In this document: in pieces, positions 1,637 through 44,792 of the stretch
Layout: every line of letters starts with the position of its first letter
Numbering within the stretch: position 1 is the stretch's first letter
DNA from: a virus
DNA length: 59,565 bases
Virus record (IMG/VR): IMGVR_UViG_3300041411_000035
Coordinates: 1-59,565 of that record
Strand: one strand, 5' to 3'
Translations under genes and position numbers: made by a program
Notes under the pieces: model-generated
Seen by the model: the letters and a program-made list of their open reading frames with translations, nothing else
Databases searched by the model: none
What the model was told of the DNA's origin: nothing

Positions 1637-2200
1637 ATGACAAATCCAAATGCAGTACAAATCGTGTTCGTAATTGACGAATCGGGCAGCATGGGCCACC
1701 TACGTGGTGATGTGATCGGTGGCTTCAACACCTTGATTGCAGAGCAACGTAAGATCGAAGGCGCTGCTGACGTTACCCTGTACACCTTCAGCAACCGTGT
1801 ACACCTTACACTGGATGCCGTCGCACTGGCTGACGTACAAGACCTGACCGAAGCCTCGTATCAACCGGGTGGCATGACCGCGATGAACGACGCAATCGGC
1901 ACAGCACTCTCTAAAGTGCTGAAAGAAGCTCCAGACAAAGCAATCATCAACATCTTCACCGATGGTCATGAGAACGCTTCTGTCGAGTATAGTGGTGCTA
2001 AGATCAAAGAGCTGGTCAAGCAAGCAGAAGAGAAAGGATACCAAATCGTTTTCCTCGCTGCAAACATTGACGAAGTGGTTACTGGTGCAGCCTACGGTAT
2101 CTCCGCTGGTGCAACACGTGGTTTCGTAGCTGACGCTGTTGGCATGGAATGGGCAATGTTGAGCGCTTCGGCATCTACTAAGTCTTACCGCAGCCAGTAA
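1637..2200 (+). CDS. von Willebrand factor A domain protein
   Basis: 187 residues forming a single vWA domain. The N-terminal MIDAS motif DESGSMG (residues about 14-20), a Thr in the GGMTAMNDAI block and the FTDGHEN block are all present, so a bound divalent metal is expected. Such proteins act as adaptors for protein complexes, often with AAA+ ATPases or, in ter systems, with TerD-like proteins. AAAGGAGAG precedes ATG 1637. A strong hairpin terminator follows. A second vWA protein is encoded in the Ter cassette at 35753-36403. Partner unknown. Confidence 0.8.
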   Translation: MTNPNAVQIVFVIDESGSMGHLRGDVIGGFNTLIAEQRKIEGAADVTLYTFSNRVHLTLDAVALADVQDLTEASYQPGGMTAMNDAIGTALSKVLKEAPDKAIINIFTDGHENASVEYSGAKIKELVKQAEEKGYQIVFLAANIDEVVTGAAYGISAGATRGFVADAVGMEWAMLSASASTKSYRSQ

Positions 2201-23043: not shown

Positions 23044-23071
23044 TTGACATGGTGAACCAGCCTGCTAATCT
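23044..23071 (+). promoter_or_regulatory. Promoter for the DGQHR gene
   Basis: TTGACA - 16 bp - TAATCT. Transcription would begin about 35 bases before the parS-like palindrome, so a protein bound there could block it. Confidence 0.55.
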
Positions 23072-23112
23072 CCTAATCAAGCAAGGGGAATACACAACAC
23101 CCCAGCTTGAAA

Positions 23113-23132
23113 GATGTTCCACGTGGAACATC
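23113..23132. promoter_or_regulatory. parS-like 20-bp perfect palindrome
   Basis: GATGTTCCACGTGGAACATC is a perfect palindrome. Its core TGTTCCACGTGGAACA matches the bacterial parS consensus (TGTTTCACGTGAAACA) at 14 of 16 positions, and the CC/GG variant is the form I recall for Pseudomonas. It lies in the 5' leader of the DGQHR gene, 25 bases before its ATG. A second copy of the core is at 31046-31059. Confidence 0.75.
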
Positions 23133-23156
23133 GTAACCTCTAGGAGAAACATCATC

Positions 23157-24614
23157 ATGTTTATGCATAATGAATCGCTTCCTACTCCGCTCGCTTCGAT
23201 TGACTCGCTGTTGAAAGAAGCTGATTCTCAAGTCAGACCTGAAAAGGTGTTCATTGGTCACAATCTGGGGCATCGCACCTTTATCGCCCTGATCCCAATG
23301 AAAGACTTCTACGCCATGAGCAAGGTGGCAAACGAGCGCCAGCCTGATGGCTCGCCAGCCACACAACGCCCACTCAATGAGGCGCACGCTACCGGGTTGG
23401 CAAAATACATCCTTCGCGGCATGATTGCAGCGGCTATCGAATACCGCCGCAACTTCAATAAGCCAGAGTCGCTGGCATTGCATGAGCTTCAAAGGGTTAT
23501 GGGGCCACAAACCTACATGAGTTTGCAGCCTATCGTTTGCAACCTTCGCACCGTTGCCCCCGGTGGCGCTGGCATCGAAGGAAAGCGGATGGAAGCCGAC
23601 GGTGAGACGGCGTGCTTTAAAGTGTTCCTTGGTCAGCGTGACATGCTGTATGTGATCGATGGTCAGCACCGTCGTTATGCGATGGATTTGGTTTTCGAAT
23701 TCCTGACTGAAATCAGGCTCAATCGGAAATATCCACGCAAGCCAAAGCTGTTCGAAGGCAACTTCAAGGAACCAATCCCTACTGAAGTGCTGGCGGCATG
23801 GGACGAATGCGACGAAGTTGCACGGGGCTTTAGCAAGATCGCTGTAGAGATTCACCTAGGGCTTGGCGTTCGGGAAGAACAGCAATTGTTCCACGACCTG
23901 AACAACCTTGCTAAAAAGGTGGAGCGTTCGCTGGCTCTGAAGTTTGACAGCGCCAACCCTGTTAACCAGTTCATCCAGAACGAACTACTGCCTCACATTC
24001 TGGACTGGGACGATGTAACAGACGGTGACCAGTCCAACTGGAACAAGGACACAGGCCGCTGGACATTCCGCGACCTTGCAGCGACTAACGCTATCCTGTT
24101 CCTGAACAAAACGAGCATTGCCAGTGCCACGCCAGCCGATGTAGAAGAAAAATATGCTACAGCTTGCAGAGCATGGGGCGCCATCGCTAACGTTCCGGGC
24201 TTTGGTAAGCCGGGGGCAAAAGCTTACACGGTGCTGGCACAGCCTGTAGTCGTCAAAGCTGTCGCTAAACTGGTATACGATCTGGGGTTTGGTCGTCGTC
24301 GTGACGCTACAGCCGGTGAAGACCTTGAAAGGCTTCTGCAAGGCTTGTCACAAGTCAACTTCAGCCACACTAACCCTGTATGGCGGTTTTATGAACTGAC
24401 TGAACAGGACCGCATCAAGCAAAAGCTTAACGGCTTGCGTGACTATCTGCCTGACGGCGGTGACACTAACCGGAACATTGGGACGTTCGATAGCCAGAAC
24501 AAATGGATGAAGTTTGGCACCCGCCATAACGACATTTACCCAATCATCGGTGACATGATTCGCTGGATGTTGAAACTCCCAAGCCGTACCGCTGAAAAGC
24601 CCGACGCGGCCTAA
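23157..24614 (+). CDS. DGQHR-domain (DndB/ParB-like fold) protein
   Basis: 485 residues. The hallmark YVIDGQHRRYAMDL lies at about residues 164-177, followed by a helical region and a large C-terminal domain. DGQHR proteins include DndB, the regulator of DNA phosphorothioation, and belong to the ParB/sulfiredoxin-like fold. ATG 23157 follows AGGAG at 10 bases; ATG 23163 is possible. The gene has its own promoter and terminator, with a parS-like site in its leader. It may be a DNA-binding regulator or an antagonist of Dnd/Ssp defence; catalysis is not shown. Confidence 0.75.
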   Translation: MFMHNESLPTPLASIDSLLKEADSQVRPEKVFIGHNLGHRTFIALIPMKDFYAMSKVANERQPDGSPATQRPLNEAHATGLAKYILRGMIAAAIEYRRNFNKPESLALHELQRVMGPQTYMSLQPIVCNLRTVAPGGAGIEGKRMEADGETACFKVFLGQRDMLYVIDGQHRRYAMDLVFEFLTEIRLNRKYPRKPKLFEGNFKEPIPTEVLAAWDECDEVARGFSKIAVEIHLGLGVREEQQLFHDLNNLAKKVERSLALKFDSANPVNQFIQNELLPHILDWDDVTDGDQSNWNKDTGRWTFRDLAATNAILFLNKTSIASATPADVEEKYATACRAWGAIANVPGFGKPGAKAYTVLAQPVVVKAVAKLVYDLGFGRRRDATAGEDLERLLQGLSQVNFSHTNPVWRFYELTEQDRIKQKLNGLRDYLPDGGDTNRNIGTFDSQNKWMKFGTRHNDIYPIIGDMIRWMLKLPSRTAEKPDAA

Positions 24615-34345: not shown

Positions 34346-34372
34346 CAAGAAACCCCGCCGAAGCGGGGTTAG
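34346..34372 (-). terminator. Terminator after the TerD gene
   Basis: On the - strand AACCCCGC-TTC-GGCGGGGTT then TCTTGGT, directly after the TerD stop. Closes the Ter cassette. Confidence 0.8.
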
Positions 34373-34375
34373 GTG

Positions 34376-34951
34376 TTACGCGAAAGCTTGCAGCACTTGG
34401 TTTGGATCAGCTACTGCCGACTCACCTACAGGCTGGAAGCCCCATCCGCCAGCCACTCGTTGCAGGGTGCCGATGTGCAGGGCAGTGCCGTTAACGAAGG
34501 TTTGCAGCTTGTAATCCTGAATCAGGATGTTGTTCTGATCGAACAGTTTGAAGCTACCATTCTTGATCATCGAGAAGTCCTGACCGCGTTTTGCTGCTTC
34601 GTGCAAGAACACGAAGTGTTCAATCTTGTGGATATGAGCCGGAATCTTGGTCACGTCAGTGATCAGCTCTTCGTCATCATCACCTTCGCCAGTACGGTTA
34701 TCACGTGGGTAAACAACAGCTCCGTCGAAAGCACTCATGTTGTTGAAGAATACAACGTTGTTCATGTTGCCTTGAATACTGCCGTTTGCATCGGTGCAGA
34801 AGGCGAACACATCAAGGTCAAAACCGTATTCTTTCGAAGAACCATGTACCGGATGGCAGTCCCAGTTCAGCAGACCACGCAGGCGGGTCAGTTGTGGTGC
34901 GGCTTTGGTCAGGTCCAACATCATAGTATTTTTGCTCAAGTTAAGCTCCAT
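34376..34951 (-). CDS. TerD-family tellurite/stress resistance protein
   Basis: 191 residues, standard TerD length. LSKNTMMLDLTK start, GLLNWDC (family GLGWD), FDLDVFAF (DLD calcium-binding), VVFFNNM and the hallmark DNRTGEGDDDEE near the centre are all visible. TerD proteins bind calcium and form stress-response complexes at the membrane with TerC. GAGGACTTGATA precedes ATG 34951. A hairpin (34973-34991) separates it from TerC. Confidence 0.85.
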   Translation of the reverse strand: MELNLSKNTMMLDLTKAAPQLTRLRGLLNWDCHPVHGSSKEYGFDLDVFAFCTDANGSIQGNMNNVVFFNNMSAFDGAVVYPRDNRTGEGDDDEELITDVTKIPAHIHKIEHFVFLHEAAKRGQDFSMIKNGSFKLFDQNNILIQDYKLQTFVNGTALHIGTLQRVAGGWGFQPVGESAVADPNQVLQAFA

Positions 34952-34972
34952 TATCAAGTCCTCTTTAGTGTT

Positions 34973-34991
34973 GAGGGGCGTTGTGCCCCTC
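34973..34991. other. Hairpin between the TerC and TerD genes
   Basis: GAGGGGC and GCCCCTC pair over 7 bp with a 5-base loop. The T-run lies on the + strand side (TTTTTC), so it would end + strand rather than - strand transcription; in the - transcript it may set the TerC/TerD ratio. Confidence 0.5.
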
Positions 34992-35006
34992 TTTTTCAGT
35001 TTGGTG

Positions 35007-35684
35007 TTAAGCCGTTTTAGCGACAAAACGTTTGTTGGCGAAAGCAGCAGCTACAACAATCAGACCACCTACAGTCTTGGCAAGCAAGTGGTTAGCTTCA
35101 CCAACGTGGCTCACGAAGAATGGATCACTCACCAGCATTTCAGCACCAACTACACCCAACATTGCAGCACCGATCCAGATGATGATCTTGAAACGATCCA
35201 TCAAACCGCTCAGGTATTTAGCACCGTAGATGATGATTGGGATCGACAGAACAATACCAGCGATTGCGTAGATTGTCGAGTGTTCCGAACCAGAAGCGGC
35301 ACCAGCTACAGCCATTACGTTGTCCAGCGAGAGCATGAAGTCAGCTACGATGATAGTCCAAACAGCGCCCCAGATAGTGTCTTTCTGTGCAACTTCGTGG
35401 GGTTCATCGTGTCCAGTCAGAAGCGAGTAACCAATCCAGACAAGGTACAGACCAGCTACCAACTTCAGGAACGGAACGCCCAAGAGGAACGTTGCGAAGA
35501 CCAGCAGGACAGCTCGGAGTGCGATGGCGCCAGCAGTACCCAGAAGGATTGCCTTACCACGAACACTTACAGCCAGTGTAGCACATGCTAGAGCAATTAC
35601 GATGGCGTTGTCAAGGCCGAGAAGCAAGTCAACCATCACGATCTTGAAGATCACAGCCCAGTCTAGCGATGCGAAAAATTCCAT
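35007..35684 (-). CDS. TerC-family integral membrane protein
   Basis: 225 residues with about seven membrane segments. The two acidic signature blocks LLGLDNAIVIAL (about 21-32) and DFMLSLDNVMAVA (about 115-127) are those of TerC/YjbE proteins, thought to be metal carriers or membrane hubs of ter systems. It has its own promoter at 35721. Downstream partner is TerD. Confidence 0.88.
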   Translation of the reverse strand: MEFFASLDWAVIFKIVMVDLLLGLDNAIVIALACATLAVSVRGKAILLGTAGAIALRAVLLVFATFLLGVPFLKLVAGLYLVWIGYSLLTGHDEPHEVAQKDTIWGAVWTIIVADFMLSLDNVMAVAGAASGSEHSTIYAIAGIVLSIPIIIYGAKYLSGLMDRFKIIIWIGAAMLGVVGAEMLVSDPFFVSHVGEANHLLAKTVGGLIVVAAAFANKRFVAKTA

Positions 35685-35720
35685 TATGTTGTTCCCCTTT
35701 CAGTTTGTTTGTGTGGGGCC

Positions 35721-35749
35721 ATCTTAACGATAAGCCCCATTGTTGTCAA
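35721..35749 (-). promoter_or_regulatory. Promoter for terC-terD
   Basis: - strand TTGACA - 17 bp - TAAGAT, then GGCCCCACACAAACAAAC. The arms at 35714-35720 and 35733-35739 pair over 7 bp with one G:T around the -10. Confidence 0.8.
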
Positions 35750-35752
35750 CGT

Positions 35753-36403
35753 TTATTTTACTGCGAAAGCTTTGAACTCTTCGTTCAGAATCAGCTCATA
35801 GAACTTGTTCTGATCTACAGCCTTCGGATTCGGGATGTACAGCACTTCAACAGTGTCGTACTTCGCAGCGATAAAGTCAAGGTAACGCTTGTCAACGCCG
35901 TTGCCGATTGCCACGATCTGTACGAAGGTGTTCTCCAGCGAATCCAGTTGAGCTTCGAAGTCACGCTGATCGTTGTTGCTACCATCAGTGATGAAGCCGA
36001 TGTAGGTTGGGGTTGCAGGCTTGGAACCGCCGAAACCGAACAGGCCACGCTTGGTTGCACTACCTTTCAGACCTTTGATAGCATCTGCGAAGTTGGTGCC
36101 GCCACCAGCGGTGATGCGGTGCTTACGAACGTACTGGCCGTGGTCGTCAACAGTTGCATCTGGAGTGCGGTCAAAACTGGTGTTGAAGAAACCAATCTCC
36201 ATCTTACCGTCATCGTCAAACTTCATGGCAGCAGCCAAGAACAGGTCGATAGTGTCTTGTACCCAACCGCAGCGGAACTCGTCGTCCATGCTACCAGATT
36301 TGTCTACGGCCAGCTTAACGGCCATAGTGATTGGTGTGAAAATCTGAGCCTTTTCGAGATTCAGTTCCAGCGATTTAGTCAGGTCTAACATTGGCATACC
36401 CAT
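35753..36403 (-). CDS. TerF-like von Willebrand factor A protein
   Basis: 216 residues. The MIDAS motif DKSGSMDDE (about 34-42), AGGGTNF and FITDGSNND are present. The N-terminus MLDLTKSLELNLEKA echoes TerD (MMLDLTKAAPQL), as in TerF/TerX-type proteins. It would bridge TerD and other partners in a metal-dependent way. AAAGGAGGATAT precedes the ATG. Confidence 0.8.
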   Translation of the reverse strand: MGMPMLDLTKSLELNLEKAQIFTPITMAVKLAVDKSGSMDDEFRCGWVQDTIDLFLAAAMKFDDDGKMEIGFFNTSFDRTPDATVDDHGQYVRKHRITAGGGTNFADAIKGLKGSATKRGLFGFGGSKPATPTYIGFITDGSNNDQRDFEAQLDSLENTFVQIVAIGNGVDKRYLDFIAAKYDTVEVLYIPNPKAVDQNKFYELILNEEFKAFAVK

Positions 36404-36424
36404 ATATCCTCCTTTGAATGTGTG

Positions 36425-37552
36425 TTAGATTGTACCGGAAGCTTTCAACGCCGTCAACAGCGATTTTTGCCCTTCTACAATCTGTACTGCTTCTTGTTCA
36501 CGTTTGATCTGAGCATCAGATTCAACCCGTTTTACTTCCACTACGGTTTCCATTACACGGTTACGCAGTATTTGAAGCGTGTCGCTTGTGATCACCGGGG
36601 TGTTCAATGCTTTAGCGCTTTCAATGGCAGCCATCTTAGCACCGTCAGCACCTTTGATCAAGGTTTTTGTTGCCAAAGTTCGCACCTCGTTTGTCAGTTT
36701 GATACTCTTCTGGCTATCTACTGTCTGGATGTACAGTGCAAACTCCATCTTGACGATAGGAATAGTCTGACTGATGATATCCTTCAACGTGCTGATGGTC
36801 ACACGACTTGTGTCCTGCTGCTGACGAATCTTCGGGCTGTTCAGCTCGGTCATCGCTTTCAGACGGATCAAGTTGTCATGCTTCATACGCAAGCGGTTAA
36901 GCTTGGATTCAGCGTCACGTGTCTGTTGGATAGACATTGCAGCGGTTGGGCTACTCAGGTCAATCTCAGGCCAGCTCTTAATCTGGTCATCGACATAGCC
37001 GATTAGACGTTCCACGTCCTGCATTTCCTTGATGATCTTTTGGTAGTGATGGAAGTTTTCATTATACAAAGCTTCCAAGTCCTTCACCCACTCCTGTTGA
37101 ACAGTAATGTGCGAGGAAATCTTACCTTCAAGATTGTCGAACACTCCTTGAGCGCTCTTCAACCGCATGGTGAGAGTGGCCTTCACGTCAGTAAACTTGT
37201 TCTGCATCCAGCCGATCATACCACCTTTTTGCAAGGAAGCTGGGTCGAGCTTGTCCACTTCGCCAGTGATCTGAGTTAGGATTGCACCCAAGTCATCAAA
37301 CTTGCCCACAACCATCTTATCGATGATCTTCTGAGTGGTTTGACCAATCTCACGGCTCACATCTTCACCGATCTTATCAATGTCAGCGTCACTCACTACG
37401 AGGTTCTGCATTGGTGCAATCTGAGATTGCTGTGTAGCAGCCGGAAACATGCTCTTACCCACACCGGTATGTGCTGCAATGACAGGCACTTCACCAACCT
37501 TAAAGCCAACATTCACAGCATCTTGTACACCAGCTTTAGCGAACAAACTCAT
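36425..37552 (-). CDS. TelA-family toxic anion resistance protein
   Basis: 375 residues, mostly long helices as in TelA/KlaA. Family-like blocks include MIGWMQNKF, DNLEGKI, QEWVKDLEALYNEN, LRMKHDNLIRLKAMTELNSPKIRQQQ and IVKMEFALYIQTV (given here in pieces). TelA sits with TerC/TerD in tellurite-type operons. It is 21 bases upstream of the vWA gene on the same strand. Confidence 0.82.
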   Translation of the reverse strand: MSLFAKAGVQDAVNVGFKVGEVPVIAAHTGVGKSMFPAATQQSQIAPMQNLVVSDADIDKIGEDVSREIGQTTQKIIDKMVVGKFDDLGAILTQITGEVDKLDPASLQKGGMIGWMQNKFTDVKATLTMRLKSAQGVFDNLEGKISSHITVQQEWVKDLEALYNENFHHYQKIIKEMQDVERLIGYVDDQIKSWPEIDLSSPTAAMSIQQTRDAESKLNRLRMKHDNLIRLKAMTELNSPKIRQQQDTSRVTISTLKDIISQTIPIVKMEFALYIQTVDSQKSIKLTNEVRTLATKTLIKGADGAKMAAIESAKALNTPVITSDTLQILRNRVMETVVEVKRVESDAQIKREQEAVQIVEGQKSLLTALKASGTI

Positions 37553-38957: not shown

Positions 38958-39171
38958 GTCCACTAGCAGAAACCTCACGATAGATACGAAGACCTTGTTC
39001 TAAGGTAGTGATTTTACTGACTACCCACCCAAAGAGGATTGCACCCTCGAAATAGGTCATAACTTCGTACTTATCAACGTCATCCTCACAGACAACACTT
39101 GACGATGTGATAGCTGGACGACCATGCTCCAGACGGCTTGCGTGTACAAAGTCAACTCTTACTGTTTTCAT
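38947..39171 (-). CDS. Hypothetical protein (74 aa)
   Basis: MKTVRVDFVHASRLEHGRPA then mixed alpha/beta. AGGAGG 7 bases before ATG 39171 decides the start. Overlaps the gene upstream by 4 bases. Function unknown. Confidence 0.6.
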   Translation of the reverse strand: MKTVRVDFVHASRLEHGRPAITSSSVVCEDDVDKYEVMTYFEGAILFGWVVSKITTLEQGLRIYREVSASGHGY

Positions 39172-39743
39172 GACATGCCTCCTATCCATTTGGTGATTCG
39201 TTCATGATCCTCAGCCTTGTTCAGGTTGAAGCATTGAACGCCATTCTCAGTTGCCAGTTTGATTGCAGTGGCAGTTCCACCTTTAGGATTGCCTTGCTTA
39301 TCCAACTTCGTCCATGCTATCAGCATTTTGGAAGGTTGGTCAAGCGTTTTCCCAAGCACTTGGAACACATTGCGAGTGTGCATCTTTCTTGCACCTTGCT
39401 TGCAAGCTTCCCAAGCCGGATGAACTGCCATCGCCATACCCTCAGCAATGGACTCAGTGTTAAAGTGGATTTCGCTTGGAAGGACGTTTAACCCTCCATG
39501 CGTATACCTGTGATGGTTTTCGTAGCCTGCCCAAGGTAGGTAGATTTCAGCGGGTGTCCACTCGTAAGGGCCATCCAATCCAGCAAACCTGAACATTCCT
39601 CTTTCAAACGCTTGATCCGCTCCTACAGCACCTCCAGACCTTAGTGTCCAGCCTTGGGAGGCGAGGGCAAAGCCCACGTCCTCCATCAGCGTTAGAATGT
39701 TGGCAGGCGTCTCTCTCGATCCAACGCCTGTATACCACTTCAT
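39168..39743 (-). CDS. DprA/SLOG-like Rossmann protein
   Basis: 191 residues. YTGVGSRETP followed by SQGWTLRSGGAVGADQAFE is the nucleotide-binding start of the SLOG superfamily (DprA, LOG, TIR-linked sensors), with GSR and SGGAxGAD as key elements. DprA proteins load RecA on ssDNA; other SLOG proteins bind cyclic or ADP-ribose-type nucleotides. Given nearby NAD and ADP-ribose genes, ligand binding is as likely as DNA work. Start overlaps the membrane gene. Confidence 0.65.
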   Translation of the reverse strand: MKWYTGVGSRETPANILTLMEDVGFALASQGWTLRSGGAVGADQAFERGMFRFAGLDGPYEWTPAEIYLPWAGYENHHRYTHGGLNVLPSEIHFNTESIAEGMAMAVHPAWEACKQGARKMHTRNVFQVLGKTLDQPSKMLIAWTKLDKQGNPKGGTATAIKLATENGVQCFNLNKAEDHERITKWIGGMS

Positions 39744-40039
39744 ACCACAGAACGACCCGAGGTTTTAGGCTCTTCCTTCGGAAGGCCAACGTTAACCATT
39801 GCCAGAATGCTTACCTTGACGGTAGACATGGCATCACCGATCATGCGGCATGGCAGGATGAATGGTCCGTATACAGCTTCACCACAAGCTTCGCTGAAGT
39901 CACGCGATGTTACACGACGTACCTCTTTGAAACGAATGCTGTACAGGAAGTAGAACACGTAGGTGGCATACACGATACCATAGGCAACTGCGATGACCAA
40001 CCAGTTGTTTACCAAGAAACTCAGTGCAGAATCAATCAT
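39740..40039 (-). CDS. Membrane protein (99 aa)
   Basis: One or two N-terminal membrane segments (LVNNWLVIAVAYGIVYATYVFYFLYS) followed by a basic then amphipathic cytoplasmic part. AGGGAGAGATAA precedes the ATG. Function unknown. Confidence 0.6.
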   Translation of the reverse strand: MIDSALSFLVNNWLVIAVAYGIVYATYVFYFLYSIRFKEVRRVTSRDFSEACGEAVYGPFILPCRMIGDAMSTVKVSILAMVNVGLPKEEPKTSGRSVV

Positions 40040-40191
40040 TTATCTCTCCCTTCTAATTTACGCCATGCGGCATCAGTTTGTTTTAGTAGAGCTTCAAGCT
40101 CCTTCCACTTCTTGGCTTTGTAAAGCTCTAAGGCTTCACTTCCCGGTGCTAGCCAATGGCCCGGTTTGTACTCAATTGCATCGCGGTACAT
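40036..40191 (-). CDS. Hypothetical basic helical protein (51 aa)
   Basis: MYRDAIEYKPGHWLAPGSEA then a Lys-rich helix (LYKAKKWKELEALLKQT). GAGGGAAGAAG precedes the ATG inside the macro-domain gene. Coupled to the next gene. Function unknown. Confidence 0.55.
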   Translation of the reverse strand: MYRDAIEYKPGHWLAPGSEALELYKAKKWKELEALLKQTDAAWRKLEGRDK

Positions 40192-40669
40192 CTTCTTCCC
40201 TCAGCACGTAGATGGTTACGTCAAATCCATCGAATAGTTTGTCGATGATTTCAGCAATTGTATCCCAATCTCCGCCCCCAAGTCCAGCACCAATTTTAGG
40301 GAAACCAATATGCCAAGGGCCGTTGCCAGTCAGGAGGTCATCACGCATCACCGTCAGAGCCTGTTCCAGCTTGGAATAATCAGTGTAACCCTTCTGGTCG
40401 TAGCCGTAGTTGTACTGGCCGTAAAGGTTGTAGATGGCCCCAATACCGCCGTTGTCGTAGTAGTGGATGCCCAAACTCAGATCACCAAACTTGCCCTTAT
40501 CGCCTTTCACAGTTTCTTGGTCAGCTTCCCAAGCATCATGGAACGCCAACTTGATTGCCTTGGCAACACCAGAATTCATCGTGTTGAAGCAGTTGGCTTG
40601 GTGGCCGATTACGTTCACTTCACCGTCGAGCAGAGCTTTGCACAGATCGCCCACTTTGTATTTAAGCAT
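40172..40669 (-). CDS. Macro-domain ADP-ribose binding/hydrolase protein
   Basis: 165 residues, a single Poa1p-like macro domain. The ligand loops are visible: VIGHQANCFNTMNSGVAKAI (N and G loops) and IGFPKIGAGLGGGDW. These proteins bind ADP-ribose and hydrolyse ADP-ribose-1''-phosphate or remove ADP-ribose from targets. AAGGAGACGATCT precedes ATG 40669. Downstream of the Nampt-like gene; suggests handling of ADP-ribose made by defence enzymes or by tRNA ligation. Confidence 0.8.
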   Translation of the reverse strand: MLKYKVGDLCKALLDGEVNVIGHQANCFNTMNSGVAKAIKLAFHDAWEADQETVKGDKGKFGDLSLGIHYYDNGGIGAIYNLYGQYNYGYDQKGYTDYSKLEQALTVMRDDLLTGNGPWHIGFPKIGAGLGGGDWDTIAEIIDKLFDGFDVTIYVLREEDVPRCN

Positions 40670-40784
40670 AGATCGTCTCCTTGAAGTGTTTGGCCTTAAC
40701 CATTTGTCGTTTGTGATAACCCTCATGGATATCGGCAGCCAGTGCAAGAGCACCAAGACCCAGAATGAAAAGCAAAAATTCCAT
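40662..40784 (-). CDS. Small membrane protein (40 aa)
   Basis: MEFLLFILGLGALALAADIH then a basic tail (HKRQMVKAKHFKET). AGGAGGAAAC precedes the ATG; the stop overlaps the macro-domain start. Function unknown. Confidence 0.5.
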   Translation of the reverse strand: MEFLLFILGLGALALAADIHEGYHKRQMVKAKHFKETIYA

Positions 40785-40797
40785 GTTTCCTCCTTCG

Positions 40798-40824
40798 AAA
40801 AGAAGCCCCTCCGAAGAGGGGCGA
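40798..40824 (-). terminator. Terminator after the Nampt-like gene
   Basis: - strand GCCCCTC-TTCG-GAGGGGC followed by TTCTTTT. Confidence 0.9.
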
Positions 40825-40828
40825 TTTG

Positions 40829-42622
40829 TTACAGCGAACGTTGGCGAATCTCGTCGAGTGTCACACGTTTCAGGAATTCCCCGTCACGGTAGATCAGCTC
40901 AAGCTTGTTCTCTGGACGTTCTTCAACTTCCTGAGTAACGTTATCAGACAGCTCGAAACGTCGAGTACCATCTTCAAACTCAAACTCACCAACATACAGA
41001 CGACCTTTGGCAGATTTCTTCTTGCTGTCAGTCTTCGGGTCTTTGAAAATTGCCACTTCGTCACCATTGATAATAGAGTTGGTTGCCTTCACAGCGAAGC
41101 CGAACACATCACGTGTTACACACTGGTAGGTGTAAGAACCCACACCAAATACAACGTTTGCAGCAGCGTAGCCTTGTTCTTCCAGACGACGCAGGATTTC
41201 TTCTGCACGCTTGGTGGTGATCGAGTCACCGTAGATCAGACCGATGTGCGAATCCAACAGTTTGTGACCAGTGGAAGTGATAGTGCCACCGAAGGTTTTG
41301 TATAGAGTGCGGATCGCACCAGCAACAACTTCGTATGGGTACACCACGTCAGTGTCAATACCACAACCTTCGATGTAATCGTCGTATACGTTAGCCTCAA
41401 ACCCGTAGAACACACCACCGACCTTAATGCAATCCTTGTCCTTCATCTGACGGATTCGGTCATCAGCATCCAACCAATCATAGGCAGCGTCTTCACTTTC
41501 GAAGTCAATCGCCTTACCATCAGAACCAGAAACAGGCTTCATGCCGCAGATCACCAGAACAGGATCACCAGAGTCTGGACGTACTACCACTTTACCCGGT
41601 TGCAGGCCCAGTGGATCACGACGCATGATCACTTCTTTCAGGTACGGATACCCGCGAGTCAACATAGCCCAGAAGTCATAAGTGTCCGATACGTTCGACA
41701 CGATACCGTTTGGTACAATGCGAGTGATCAGGTCATACACGAACATCACCTCAGCAATCAGGCGGGTTTCCTCACCAGTGATTGCCATGTTCACCATGAT
41801 CTGAATCTGCTCTTCACAAGCATATTCGTAGGTGCCAGCGATCAACTCATTCTCAATCGAGATAATGTTGTTCGAAGTTACAGCGTGTTCGGTTGCTGGA
41901 ACCGAGATACCGATCAAACCAGTTGCATCGTAGTAACGCTTAGCGTGACGGATGGCTGGCAGTGTGTCAGTACCAACAAATTGAGTCAAGTGACCTACGC
42001 CCGAACGAGCAGCGTCTTCGATACCAGACATACCACGCATAGAGAAGTCGTGGCACATAACCGAGACAGTGAAGGCATCGTAGCAGCCGGTCAACTTGGT
42101 GTAGTGTTCACAAATCTTGCGGTATTCACGTGCAATCGTTGCGTTGGTTGCAGTCTTCCAAGTGGTGGCAGACAGCGGAGTTTCGTGGTAGTTCACCAGC
42201 CAGAAGAACTCATCCAGAGTGTTAGTCACGGTCAGGACAGGGATACCCATCGGAACCAGCGAGCCCTCTGGCAGAGAGCGGAACTCCAGTGGCAGGTAGC
42301 CCAGATCGTGCAGTGCAGCCATTTGTTGGCTGGTTGGAAGATCACGACCGAGGTAGTCCATCAGGAACTCTTCATATTCAGGGATCACGTCAGCTTTTGG
42401 CTGAGAGAAGAAAGAGCGTTCCCAGTTTTCGGTCAGCTCTTGAATAGCAGCTTGACCACCGACCCAAACCAGTTGGTTGTCGTAGAATGTAGTGCAAGTA
42501 CGCTTGTAGATTTTGTCGGTACGTGGAGTCAGGTTACTACCAACTTTGGAAGTACCGCGACGATACATTGGACCGTGACCCAGTTTGTAACCATCAGTAG
42601 CGAACATCATTTCAAAGAACAT
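40829..42622 (-). CDS. Nicotinamide phosphoribosyltransferase-like protein (Nampt/Namat)
   Basis: 597 residues, the longer form seen in phages. Type II phosphoribosyltransferase fold features: YKLGHGPMY at the N-terminus, SFEFR-like LPLEFRSLPEGSLVP, VSVMCHDFSMRGMSG, VVRPDSGDPV (PRPP/substrate site) and VFGVGSYTYQ. Nampt couples nicotinamide to PRPP; phage relatives named Namat use ADP-ribose pyrophosphate to make NAD directly. Own promoter at 42659 and terminator after. Pairs with the Prs-like gene 1.3 kb upstream. Confidence 0.88.
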   Translation of the reverse strand: MFFEMMFATDGYKLGHGPMYRRGTSKVGSNLTPRTDKIYKRTCTTFYDNQLVWVGGQAAIQELTENWERSFFSQPKADVIPEYEEFLMDYLGRDLPTSQQMAALHDLGYLPLEFRSLPEGSLVPMGIPVLTVTNTLDEFFWLVNYHETPLSATTWKTATNATIAREYRKICEHYTKLTGCYDAFTVSVMCHDFSMRGMSGIEDAARSGVGHLTQFVGTDTLPAIRHAKRYYDATGLIGISVPATEHAVTSNNIISIENELIAGTYEYACEEQIQIMVNMAITGEETRLIAEVMFVYDLITRIVPNGIVSNVSDTYDFWAMLTRGYPYLKEVIMRRDPLGLQPGKVVVRPDSGDPVLVICGMKPVSGSDGKAIDFESEDAAYDWLDADDRIRQMKDKDCIKVGGVFYGFEANVYDDYIEGCGIDTDVVYPYEVVAGAIRTLYKTFGGTITSTGHKLLDSHIGLIYGDSITTKRAEEILRRLEEQGYAAANVVFGVGSYTYQCVTRDVFGFAVKATNSIINGDEVAIFKDPKTDSKKKSAKGRLYVGEFEFEDGTRRFELSDNVTQEVEERPENKLELIYRDGEFLKRVTLDEIRQRSL

Positions 42623-42658
42623 ATTTGTGTCTCTCCTTTGTGTTTGTCTATGTGGGCC

Positions 42659-42687
42659 ATCTTACAGACTGGCCCAAACCATGTCAA
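42659..42687 (-). promoter_or_regulatory. Promoter of the Nampt-like gene
   Basis: - strand TTGACA - 17 bp - TAAGAT. TGGGCCA (42670-42676 region) and TGGCCCA (42653-42659 region) pair perfectly over 7 bp with a 10-base loop. Confidence 0.8.
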
Positions 42688-42690
42688 CAG

Positions 42691-43452
42691 TTATTTAGGC
42701 TGTTCACAGTAGAACTTAGGGTCCATCACCAGCGGTGCATCTTGTGGCAGGAAGCATTGTGGCACCACTTGGGGTTGCTGCACTGGTACTTTCTGCTCAA
42801 GCAAGCTCAGGTTTTGGTTCTGAATCTGCTGATTCGCAAGGATGGTGTTCATCTTAGCTTCCAGATGCTTAGTCTCATTATTAGAGGTCAAAGCATCATA
42901 GATCATCATTCCGCCGAACGCACCCAATGCACCACCCAGCATAGAGGTTCCCATGCCGCTACTACCATAGTGATTACCATAATAGCCACCACCATAACCT
43001 CGATTGTATCCATTGTAGCCTCCGTAGCTATTGCCGTAATAATTGCGTTGAATCACTGTCACGTTACGTGGCTGTGAACGATAAGCTGTAGGGCTTATCA
43101 CCTTGCGGACTGGTGGTTTATAAGCTGGTGTAGAGCTTACACGCTTCTGAGAAAACCAGCCACCAGAAGTGGTTGTAGTCTTTGCCACAGGCTTAGACGA
43201 TGCGGACACACTTCGATTGCTTACCGTCGGGGTAGAAGCAGGCTTTGAAAAGCCCAGTGCTTTTAAACCCGGATTGCTCGACGTACCCGCTTGTTGCTTT
43301 GGGGCAGAGTAGGTACTCTTTGGTGCGCTATACGAAGAGCGAGAACTTGAGAAGCTGCTTCTCGAAGAAGAAACACGGCTGGCCGCGTCAGCCTCAACAG
43401 CAATCATACCCACCATCAAGAAACCCATCATACCAGCCATAATCTTTTTCAA
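42691..43452 (-). CDS. Secreted Ser/Gly/Tyr-rich low-complexity protein
   Basis: 253 residues. Signal peptide MKKIMAGMMGFLMVGMIAVE with likely cleavage after ADA. Then Ser/Arg repeats (SSSRSSFSSSRSS), Lys/Pro/Thr-rich linker, a Gly/Tyr/Asn-rich segment (YYGNSYGGYNGYNRGYGGG), a hydrophobic helix (LGGALGAFGGMMIYDAL) and a coiled-coil-like Gln/Asn region. Looks like an exported, partly disordered adhesive or envelope protein. It is unusual for an early phage region. Function unknown. Confidence 0.65.
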   Translation of the reverse strand: MKKIMAGMMGFLMVGMIAVEADAASRVSSSRSSFSSSRSSYSAPKSTYSAPKQQAGTSSNPGLKALGFSKPASTPTVSNRSVSASSKPVAKTTTTSGGWFSQKRVSSTPAYKPPVRKVISPTAYRSQPRNVTVIQRNYYGNSYGGYNGYNRGYGGGYYGNHYGSSGMGTSMLGGALGAFGGMMIYDALTSNNETKHLEAKMNTILANQQIQNQNLSLLEQKVPVQQPQVVPQCFLPQDAPLVMDPKFYCEQPK

Positions 43453-43466
43453 TTTGAAACTCCTAA

Positions 43467-43895
43467 TTAATCACAAGAAGAGGAAGAGCTGCTGCTAGAG
43501 CTGCTGTCGCAAGAAGAGCTGGAGCTGCTGGACCCACTATCACCACCCCAACTGGAGTAGCTGCTGTAGCCATCATCACTGCTTCGACTGGAACGACTTG
43601 AGCTGCTTCCCGAAGTGGAGCCAGAATACGACCTTGGTGGTGCCTTGTCAACAGGTTTTTGCTGAGACTTTGCAACTACTGGAACACCACGTGGGATTCC
43701 TGCGTTCACACGTACTTCCTGAACAGACTCAGCTCGCAATTGGTCTAGAGTGAATTCAGACACTTCTACCCGTGTCGGCTTAACTGCTGGCATTGGCGGC
43801 ACTTGGTAGTGCCTGATAGGCTTCGGCTCACGCACGATCAGCCAGATCAAGCCCAGAGTAGCAGCACCAATTGCAATCATAATCAAAATTTCCAT
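43467..43895 (-). CDS. Membrane protein with poly-Ser tail (142 aa)
   Basis: N-terminal membrane segment (MEILIMIAIGAATLGLIWLIV), a Pro-rich linker, then a Ser-rich C-terminus (about 60 residues) that ends CD after two long Ser runs. Lies 14 bases upstream of the secreted Ser-rich gene, so the two are probably one functional unit. Tail compositional bias suggests disorder or modification. Confidence 0.6.
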   Translation of the reverse strand: MEILIMIAIGAATLGLIWLIVREPKPIRHYQVPPMPAVKPTRVEVSEFTLDQLRAESVQEVRVNAGIPRGVPVVAKSQQKPVDKAPPRSYSGSTSGSSSSRSSRSSDDGYSSYSSWGGDSGSSSSSSSCDSSSSSSSSSSCD

Positions 43896-43904
43896 GTAGC
43901 CTCC

Positions 43905-44792
43905 TTACAGTTTAACAACAGTGAGTTTAGAATGTGCCTGTTGTGGCAACGTGTCAGTGGTGTAGACATGATCAAACTCGTCAGTCAATACACCAACACC
44001 TTTCGAGAAGATACCGTGTGTAACGGCCAGCTCAATGGTGTAATCCATCTTGCCTGTGTAGTAGCCCGGAGAGACACGCTCGATGGCACCCGCCACTTCA
44101 ATGAAGGTACGGCCACCGTCACAGATATCGTCCAACACCAACAACTTACTGCCGAGCGTCTGAAGAATCTCAGGGTTGAGAATGCTCATACCCAGAATCT
44201 TACCGTCAGACAGATTACGCTTCTTGTTACAGTACAGAACATCCTTGGCTCCGACCAGTTTGGCGAAGTCTTCGGTCTTCTTGGTAGCACCCATATCAGG
44301 AGCAACGATTGTCCAGTTGTGCCAGTCTTGTTTGATGCCTTTGAAGGCGTCTTTCTGCTCAATGACGAAGCAGCGGTCCAAGGCAGCCACCAGAACAGGG
44401 CTGTGAGGGTCTACAACCGTCACTGTGGAGTATTTCATCGCATTGATGAGCTGAGCTACCACCTTCACGCTCAAAGCCTCTCCAGCGTTGCATACGCGGT
44501 CCTGACGGGCATACGGAAAGTATGGGATCAACAGGTCGATGTGTGCGAACGGGTAGACACGCTTCAAGGCATCAGTCGCCATAAACATTTGCATCAGGTT
44601 GTCGCTCGACTGAATCTTTGCAGTGAGTGTGATCGTGATCACGCCTTGTGCTTCCGTGGTGAACGGATTGAGACTGCCAGTGTTGATGTTCACGCCCACT
44701 TCACCACCGGGAAACTTCATGGTGCTGATAGACACGCGATGATTTTTGTTCTGGTTCAAAGTGTAGAACAGGTTTTCGTTAAACTCGGTCAT
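43905..44792 (-). CDS. prs: Ribose-phosphate pyrophosphokinase-like protein (Prs / Adps type)
   Basis: 295 residues, slightly short of cellular Prs (about 315). PYFPYARQDR (about 92-101), VVDPHS, and LLVLDDICDGGRTF (PRPP-binding loop) are present. Cellular Prs makes PRPP from ribose-5-phosphate and ATP. Phage homologues in NAD-reconstitution pathway 1 (Adps) instead pyrophosphorylate ADP-ribose to feed the Nampt-like partner. Sequence alone does not separate the two. Own promoter at 44822. Confidence 0.88.
   Translation of the reverse strand: MTEFNENLFYTLNQNKNHRVSISTMKFPGGEVGVNINTGSLNPFTTEAQGVITITLTAKIQSSDNLMQMFMATDALKRVYPFAHIDLLIPYFPYARQDRVCNAGEALSVKVVAQLINAMKYSTVTVVDPHSPVLVAALDRCFVIEQKDAFKGIKQDWHNWTIVAPDMGATKKTEDFAKLVGAKDVLYCNKKRNLSDGKILGMSILNPEILQTLGSKLLVLDDICDGGRTFIEVAGAIERVSPGYYTGKMDYTIELAVTHGIFSKGVGVLTDEFDHVYTTDTLPQQAHSKLTVVKL

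Follow-up and report, generated by a model that had tools for sequence, protein, structure and literature searches.

The TerD protein and the TerF-like vWA protein encoded by a four-gene Ter cassette of a large phage both open with a tandem LxLxK leader, and the spelling of this leader agrees between the two proteins of one locus. The likeliest reading is that the leader serves as a docking tag, specific to its operon, within a Ter complex at the membrane, with the two tagged proteins probably binding each other or one common partner. At its most specific, an interpretation to which we give slightly less than even credence, TerD and the TerF-type vWA protein would carry a matched address tag that drives selective Ter assembly, possibly through homotypic strand pairing, and the systems of phages, megaplasmids and cells would be kept apart by spelling. 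Ter proteins have a role in phage, metal and stress resistance and their mechanism is a decades-old question; a short conserved tag carried by precisely two components would offer a direct handle on the Ter complex and its phenotype. Of these results, the paired tag is the one that merits further work: no description of it was found in the literature searched, to which the core 2012 Ter review (PMC4104200), a text that may mention the leader, did not belong.

The stretch of DNA analyzed (the window) comprises 59,565 bases of a linear IMG/VR virus record. Much of the cassette region is ~80% identical to Otagovirus phages, among them phiPsa374 and phiPsa300, and the window is part of an Otagovirus-like phage genome. 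The original prediction, made from the letters alone, was of a Ter cassette in a lytic phage, with telA, a TerF-like vWA gene, terC and terD encoded consecutively. This order is indeed found on the minus strand (34376-37552; Table 1), with all four products scoring above the Pfam cut-offs, and the placement in a virulent-type phage is likewise supported. The name TerF-like holds for the vWA part of the second protein but not for the whole, as it has no TerD domain. Purifying selection acts on all four genes (median dN/dS 0.12-0.22 in up to 11 Otagovirus-like genomes), and the cassette is alike in base composition to the remaining sequence (0.487 versus 0.475 elsewhere).

Table 1. Coordinates of the Ter cassette genes, their leaders and the adjacent regulatory elements in the window
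Feature	Position	Strand	Description
telA	36425..37552	-	375 aa, TelA family (toxic anion resistance); PF05816 E 6e-23; phrog_5890 E 2e-116; dN/dS ~0.18
TerF-like vWA gene	35753..36403	-	216 aa; PF10138 E 3.5e-21; dN/dS ~0.12
Tandem LxLxK leader of vWA protein	36350..36388	-	Residues 6-18, LDLTK..LNLEK
Sigma70-like promoter before terC	35716..35749	-	TTGACA-N17-TAAGAT with GGGC..GCCC inverted repeat; hairpin
terC	35007..35684	-	225 aa, YjbE-type membrane protein; PF03741 E 1e-40; TIGR03717; dN/dS ~0.16
GC-rich hairpin in terC-terD gap	34973..34991	-	T-run absent on minus strand
terD	34376..34951	-	191 aa; PF02342 E ~2e-34; dN/dS ~0.22
Tandem LxLxK leader of TerD	34904..34945	-	Native residues 3-16, LNLSK..LDLTK
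Terminator-type hairpin after terD	34351..34370	-	AACCCCGC TTCG GCGGGGTT

TelA, whose family assignment lies above the curated cut-off, has no predicted TM segments. The vWA protein retains an intact MIDAS (D34-S36-S38, T103 and D140), the residues of which are unchanged across 25 relatives; its AF2 model (pLDDT 88) adopts the vWA fold with confidence and vWA/I-domain structures are matched in the PDB. TerC belongs to the NCBIfam YjbE subfamily (188 bits, with the cut-off at 135) and keeps both D-x5-DN motifs, as DLLLGLDN and DFMLSLDN. TerD, for which the sequence is read as initiating at 34951, retains the acidic DNRTGEGDDDEE motif in its domain and has an AF2 model with a pLDDT of 84; its family matches the PDB entries 2kxt, 2kxv and 3ibz, the first of which, K. 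pneumoniae TerD, is aligned over its length. The PDB sequence search recovered neither a convincing TelA homolog nor a leader-bearing TerF-type vWA protein, and none of the four cassette proteins was matched by the PADLOC models at E 0.01.

An MLDLTK block had been noted at the start of both the vWA protein and TerD. The likeness is real and far more general than first described, for the block is part of a tandem LxLxK leader present on both. Two such units open every phage vWA protein in our first alignment, and nearly every TerD likewise. Among the 1,708 ORFs of the first 98 loci, a tandem within the first 32 residues occurs in 39 TerD and 32 vWA proteins and in no other ORF class. Within each unit, the second L and the K hold ranks 1-4 for conservation among the 192 positions of TerD, and ranks 2, 12, 13 and 15 among the 216 of the vWA protein. 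At a minority of loci one protein of the pair has no recognizable leader, in part because extraction failed.

The first nine residues of TerD have a pLDDT of only ~40 in the AF2 model, which puts the leader outside the TerD sandwich there, whereas the vWA leader is modeled as a helix (pLDDT 75-87). With a helix in one protein and no confident fold in the other, AF2 does not support a common structure of the two leaders, nor does it lend support to the leader being a folded TerD β-hairpin. That the leader is left over from a TerD fusion since lost is also unlikely: TerF proteins of the R478 type possess a TerD domain and, between it and the vWA domain, three LxLxK units of their own, so that the leader is an element in its own right.

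The agreement in spelling within a locus can be seen in pairs such as LSVEK/LSVEK in Bertelyvirus, VSLKK/VSLKK in a further locus (L169), INLAK/INLTK in CcrColossus and FNLEK..FALVK/FNLTK..FALSK in another (L064). For a statistical assessment, leaders were extracted automatically, one representative was taken per vWA group, and observed pairs were compared with permuted ones. With the groups treated as independent, that is, with kinship ignored, the observed pairs agree more closely than the permuted ones at 19 groups (z 7.8, p 1e-4), at 11 groups (z 5.8) and at 7 groups (p 4e-4). Core β-strand controls gave null results, save for weak signals (p 0.01-0.03) in two controls at the loosest groupings. 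The covariation was replicated on 27 later-fetched loci forming 17 groups below 60% identity (p 5e-5), while p was 0.12 in a background control that drew its units from unrelated ORFs at these loci.

These figures bear on the alternative that the match is a by-product of common ancestry, of amino-acid composition or of a recent gene-conversion event linking terD with the vWA gene. One ancestral motif may well underlie both leaders. Ancestry alone, however, would not hold two genes matched across groups with less than 45% identity, and the null or weak controls, together with the independent replication on new loci, further argue against a by-product. Gene conversion should leave a codon-level sign of copying, which was not found: where the residue is the same, 230 of 472 codons match, against 221.7 predicted from codon usage. 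Hence, the leader match is maintained at the protein level, and we consider the by-product explanation improbable. The covariation also persists at seven loci where Pfam recognizes no TelA (exact p 0.0024). TelA is thereby a less likely candidate for the sole docking partner, and also for a necessary one, though coiled proteins at these loci may substitute for it.

A tblastn search against ~50,700 phage records recovered the vWA protein in 202, TelA in 219, TerD in 73 and this TerC in 40 of them; among the matches listed, the vWA-positive records are large genomes of 94 kb and more. The order TelA, vWA, membrane protein, TerD is kept even between very distantly related phages: it occurs in Otagovirus, in phages of Rhizobium (L003), Caulobacter (L005) and Brevundimonas (L007, L008), in P. 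syringae phage Cygsa01 (L006) and in many uncultivated viral contigs of up to ~500 kb (L102-L104, L107, L127 and others). A conjugative megaplasmid of Caballeronia (L076) has it as well. The genes are thus conserved together in relatives rather than absent or scattered, with dispersal across several kb seen in the Stephanstirmvirinae. The membrane slot is occupied by a YjbE-type TerC, an Alx-type TerC or DUF475; within the Dolichocephalovirinae it alternates between the latter two, while the gene order and a downstream RtcB gene stay unchanged. Phage, plasmid and chromosomal Ter cassettes can be joined in this way in one modular scheme, in which the membrane part is exchangeable. The Otagovirus TerC sequences fall into a single clade of the TerC tree (96/94). 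This clade lies within an 18-row group (100/100) that also includes other phages and TerC from betaproteobacterial chromosomes, and the inner branching of the group is partly unresolved.

The closest cellular TerC proteins found (54-56% identity) come from chromosomal clusters of Achromobacter and Azonexus (L035, L037), which share with the window a YjbE-type TerC, TerD and a standalone leader-vWA protein. They differ in gene order, and L035 has coiled proteins without a Pfam TelA match instead of TelA. These clusters belong to a second type of Ter module (L035, L037, L065, L110, L113), present both on chromosomes and in viral contigs, that combines a TerC-superfamily membrane protein, TerD and a leader-vWA protein without a recognized TelA; two coiled proteins lie in between in L035 and L065. 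Separately, most of a set of viral contigs (L147-L160) carry two to five TerD genes in a row, with no vWA or TelA recognized nearby. A 203-kb plasmid record of Bacillus halotolerans (L075), which may be a phage or phage-plasmid, has genes for replication (a DnaB-like helicase, a primase, Rad52 and nrdE) along with one for a leader-vWA protein.

Among described systems, phiPsa374 gp11-gp15 (PMC9796965) have the identical four-gene order and ~67-87% protein identity to the window, with one additional small gene between telA and the vWA gene that the window lacks. The operons of Caulobacter jumbo phages (PMC7824862) also follow the TelA-vWA-membrane-TerD order, but place DUF475 in the slot held by a YjbE-type TerC in the window and are only ~17-30% identical at the protein level. 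Since ter genes have been published for both, and a use against superinfecting phages for the latter, neither the cassette nor the superinfection idea is new in kind.

The phenotypes by which operons of the R478 type (terZABCDEF) are recognized are tellurite resistance, phage inhibition and colicin resistance. The R478 (IncHI2) operon has the TerC, TerD and TerF vWA families in common with the window cassette, and its LxLxK units start TerD and precede the TerF vWA domain, as in the window proteins. It differs in possessing TerB and TerZ/A/E, which are not found next to the window cassette, in the fusion of its TerF to a degenerate TerD domain, and in having no TelA annotated in that stretch.

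The inhibition of phages by cellular ter operons, and a leader plan common to phage and cellular vWA proteins, would suit a decoy, in which the phage Ter proteins join and poison a host Ter-type defense complex, as had been suggested for this cassette. However, each operon has its own leader spelling, which covaries between the two proteins encoded in the phage operon; this favors self-assembly over mixing. The cassette is also complete, with a membrane protein of its own. Close relatives of the phage vWA protein are moreover rare or absent among the cellular genomes searched: within a sample of 399 Pseudomonadota genomes, not aimed at Pseudomonas hosts, one had a standalone leader-vWA gene and five had long-frame TerF-type genes, and a profile search of genome contigs with the vWA alignment gave no matches. 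Poisoning of a host complex hence found no support here, and we regard it as quite improbable.

Returning to the docking tag, the phage Ter complex would sit at the host cell's inner membrane during infection, with the YjbE-type TerC as its divalent-metal membrane protein and TelA as a helical cytosolic scaffold. TerD, with its Ca2+-binding fold, and the MIDAS-bearing vWA protein would act as metal-binding adaptors, paired by the tandem LxLxK tag either directly, strand to strand, or via the same docking surface; operon-specific spelling would keep the complex private to its own operon. Its likeliest use would be to steady the envelope and ion balance, so that competing phages or stress-induced lysis are hindered. 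Taken whole, this picture of a compact membrane complex, with vWA and TerD paired by an operon-specific tag and protection of envelope and ions that hinders competitors, is one we advance tentatively, as it falls just short of an even chance. The sequences themselves show gene content and order, selection, intact motifs and a leader that is conserved and covaries; docking by the tag, assembly of a complex, the metal substrate and the part played in infection are inferred from them. If it is true, changes to the tag could break the Ter complex or redirect a partner to another operon.

Protection of the infected cell or exclusion of superinfecting phages, both suggested for this cassette from the letters alone, is plausible. 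Iyer et al. 2021 (PMC7824862) had already proposed a use against superinfecting phages for the abbreviated TerD/TerC/TerF/TelA operons that Caulobacter jumbo phages carry. In K. pneumoniae, a terC mutant yields larger plaques and is sensitive to Zn and Mn (PMC12054061); according to an excerpt of the R478 work quoted in that paper, phage inhibition needs terC, terD and terZ, with insertions in terE and terF being without effect. By analogy, these data support a part for TerC and TerD in competition or in envelope or metal stress, but not for the vWA protein specifically, which, given the terF insertion, may not matter for exclusion. As a counterpoint, P. putida relatives without the cassette (e.g., Amme-3) still propagate; they retain NAMPT and DprA.

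The same terC phenotype is compatible with metal supply or detoxification, whereby TerC/YjbE, TerD and the vWA protein manage Mn2+, Zn2+ or Ca2+ for metalating phage enzymes or membrane proteins, and effects on other phages are incidental. The annotation of the YjbE subfamily as metal transport, the preservation of both D-x5-DN motifs and the acceptance of three TerC-superfamily types in the membrane slot all fit this explanation, as does the metalation of exported enzymes by TerC proteins of B. subtilis, reported in PMC12096827. On its own, however, it leaves unexplained both the tag-matched vWA-TerD pair and the absence of the cassette from close relatives with similar enzymes. We see it as a serious contender, yet on balance unlikely.

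Family annotation is what suggests a tellurite resistance set carried for the benefit of the host. The phages are virulent, however, and neither terB nor a terZ/terA set lies adjacent; among the adjacent genes tested TerB is absent and TerD is represented by a single protein. The phiPsa374 authors, whose passage on these genes leaves the function open and does not mention the leader, hold the terC, terD, terF and telA of that phage "unlikely to provide tellurium resistance" (PMC9796965). Tellurite resistance as such is thereby weakened, and we think it very improbable.

The phage-type promoter anticipated before terC was found, and TTGACA-N17-TAAGATGGCCCC or a close variant recurs in the vWA-terC gap of five Otagovirus-like relatives. 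The terminator foreseen after terD corresponds to a hairpin at 34370-34351, where the stretch scores -18.1 kcal/mol (z -3.3), yet its T-run is short and the terminator consensus scan did not list it. The terC promoter has a palindromic twin on the minus strand at 42654-42687, ahead of the NAMPT gene; both display a GGGCC..GGCCC inverted repeat around TAAGAT, a motif that recurs in relatives, and these promoter-like sites may represent a class of phage promoters under regulation.

An NAD+/ADP-ribose-related cluster immediately upstream of the cassette (39168-44792, minus strand) codes for NAMPT, a PRPP-synthetase-like protein, a DprA/SLOG-like protein and a macro-domain protein that weakly matches DarG (E 9e-8). 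The NAMPT and PRPP-synthetase-like genes, 3-7 kb upstream of the cassette, differ in family from the ATP-grasp/PRTase/HAD nucleoside-like biosynthesis module, of which no member was detected among the adjacent genes tested, a part of the genes in the window. A second vWA gene (1637-2200, plus strand; phrog_7371), preceded by an exact TTGACA-N17-TAAGAT at 1441, had been put forward as a possible interactor; it is unlinked to the cassette and its product has no LxLxK leader, so an interaction gains no support. Elsewhere on the plus strand are genes for a DndB-like protein associated with DNA-sulfur modification (23049-24614; PF14072 E 3e-29) and for an alginate-lyase-like protein (820-1437; PF08787 E 2e-30), which is perhaps a depolymerase.
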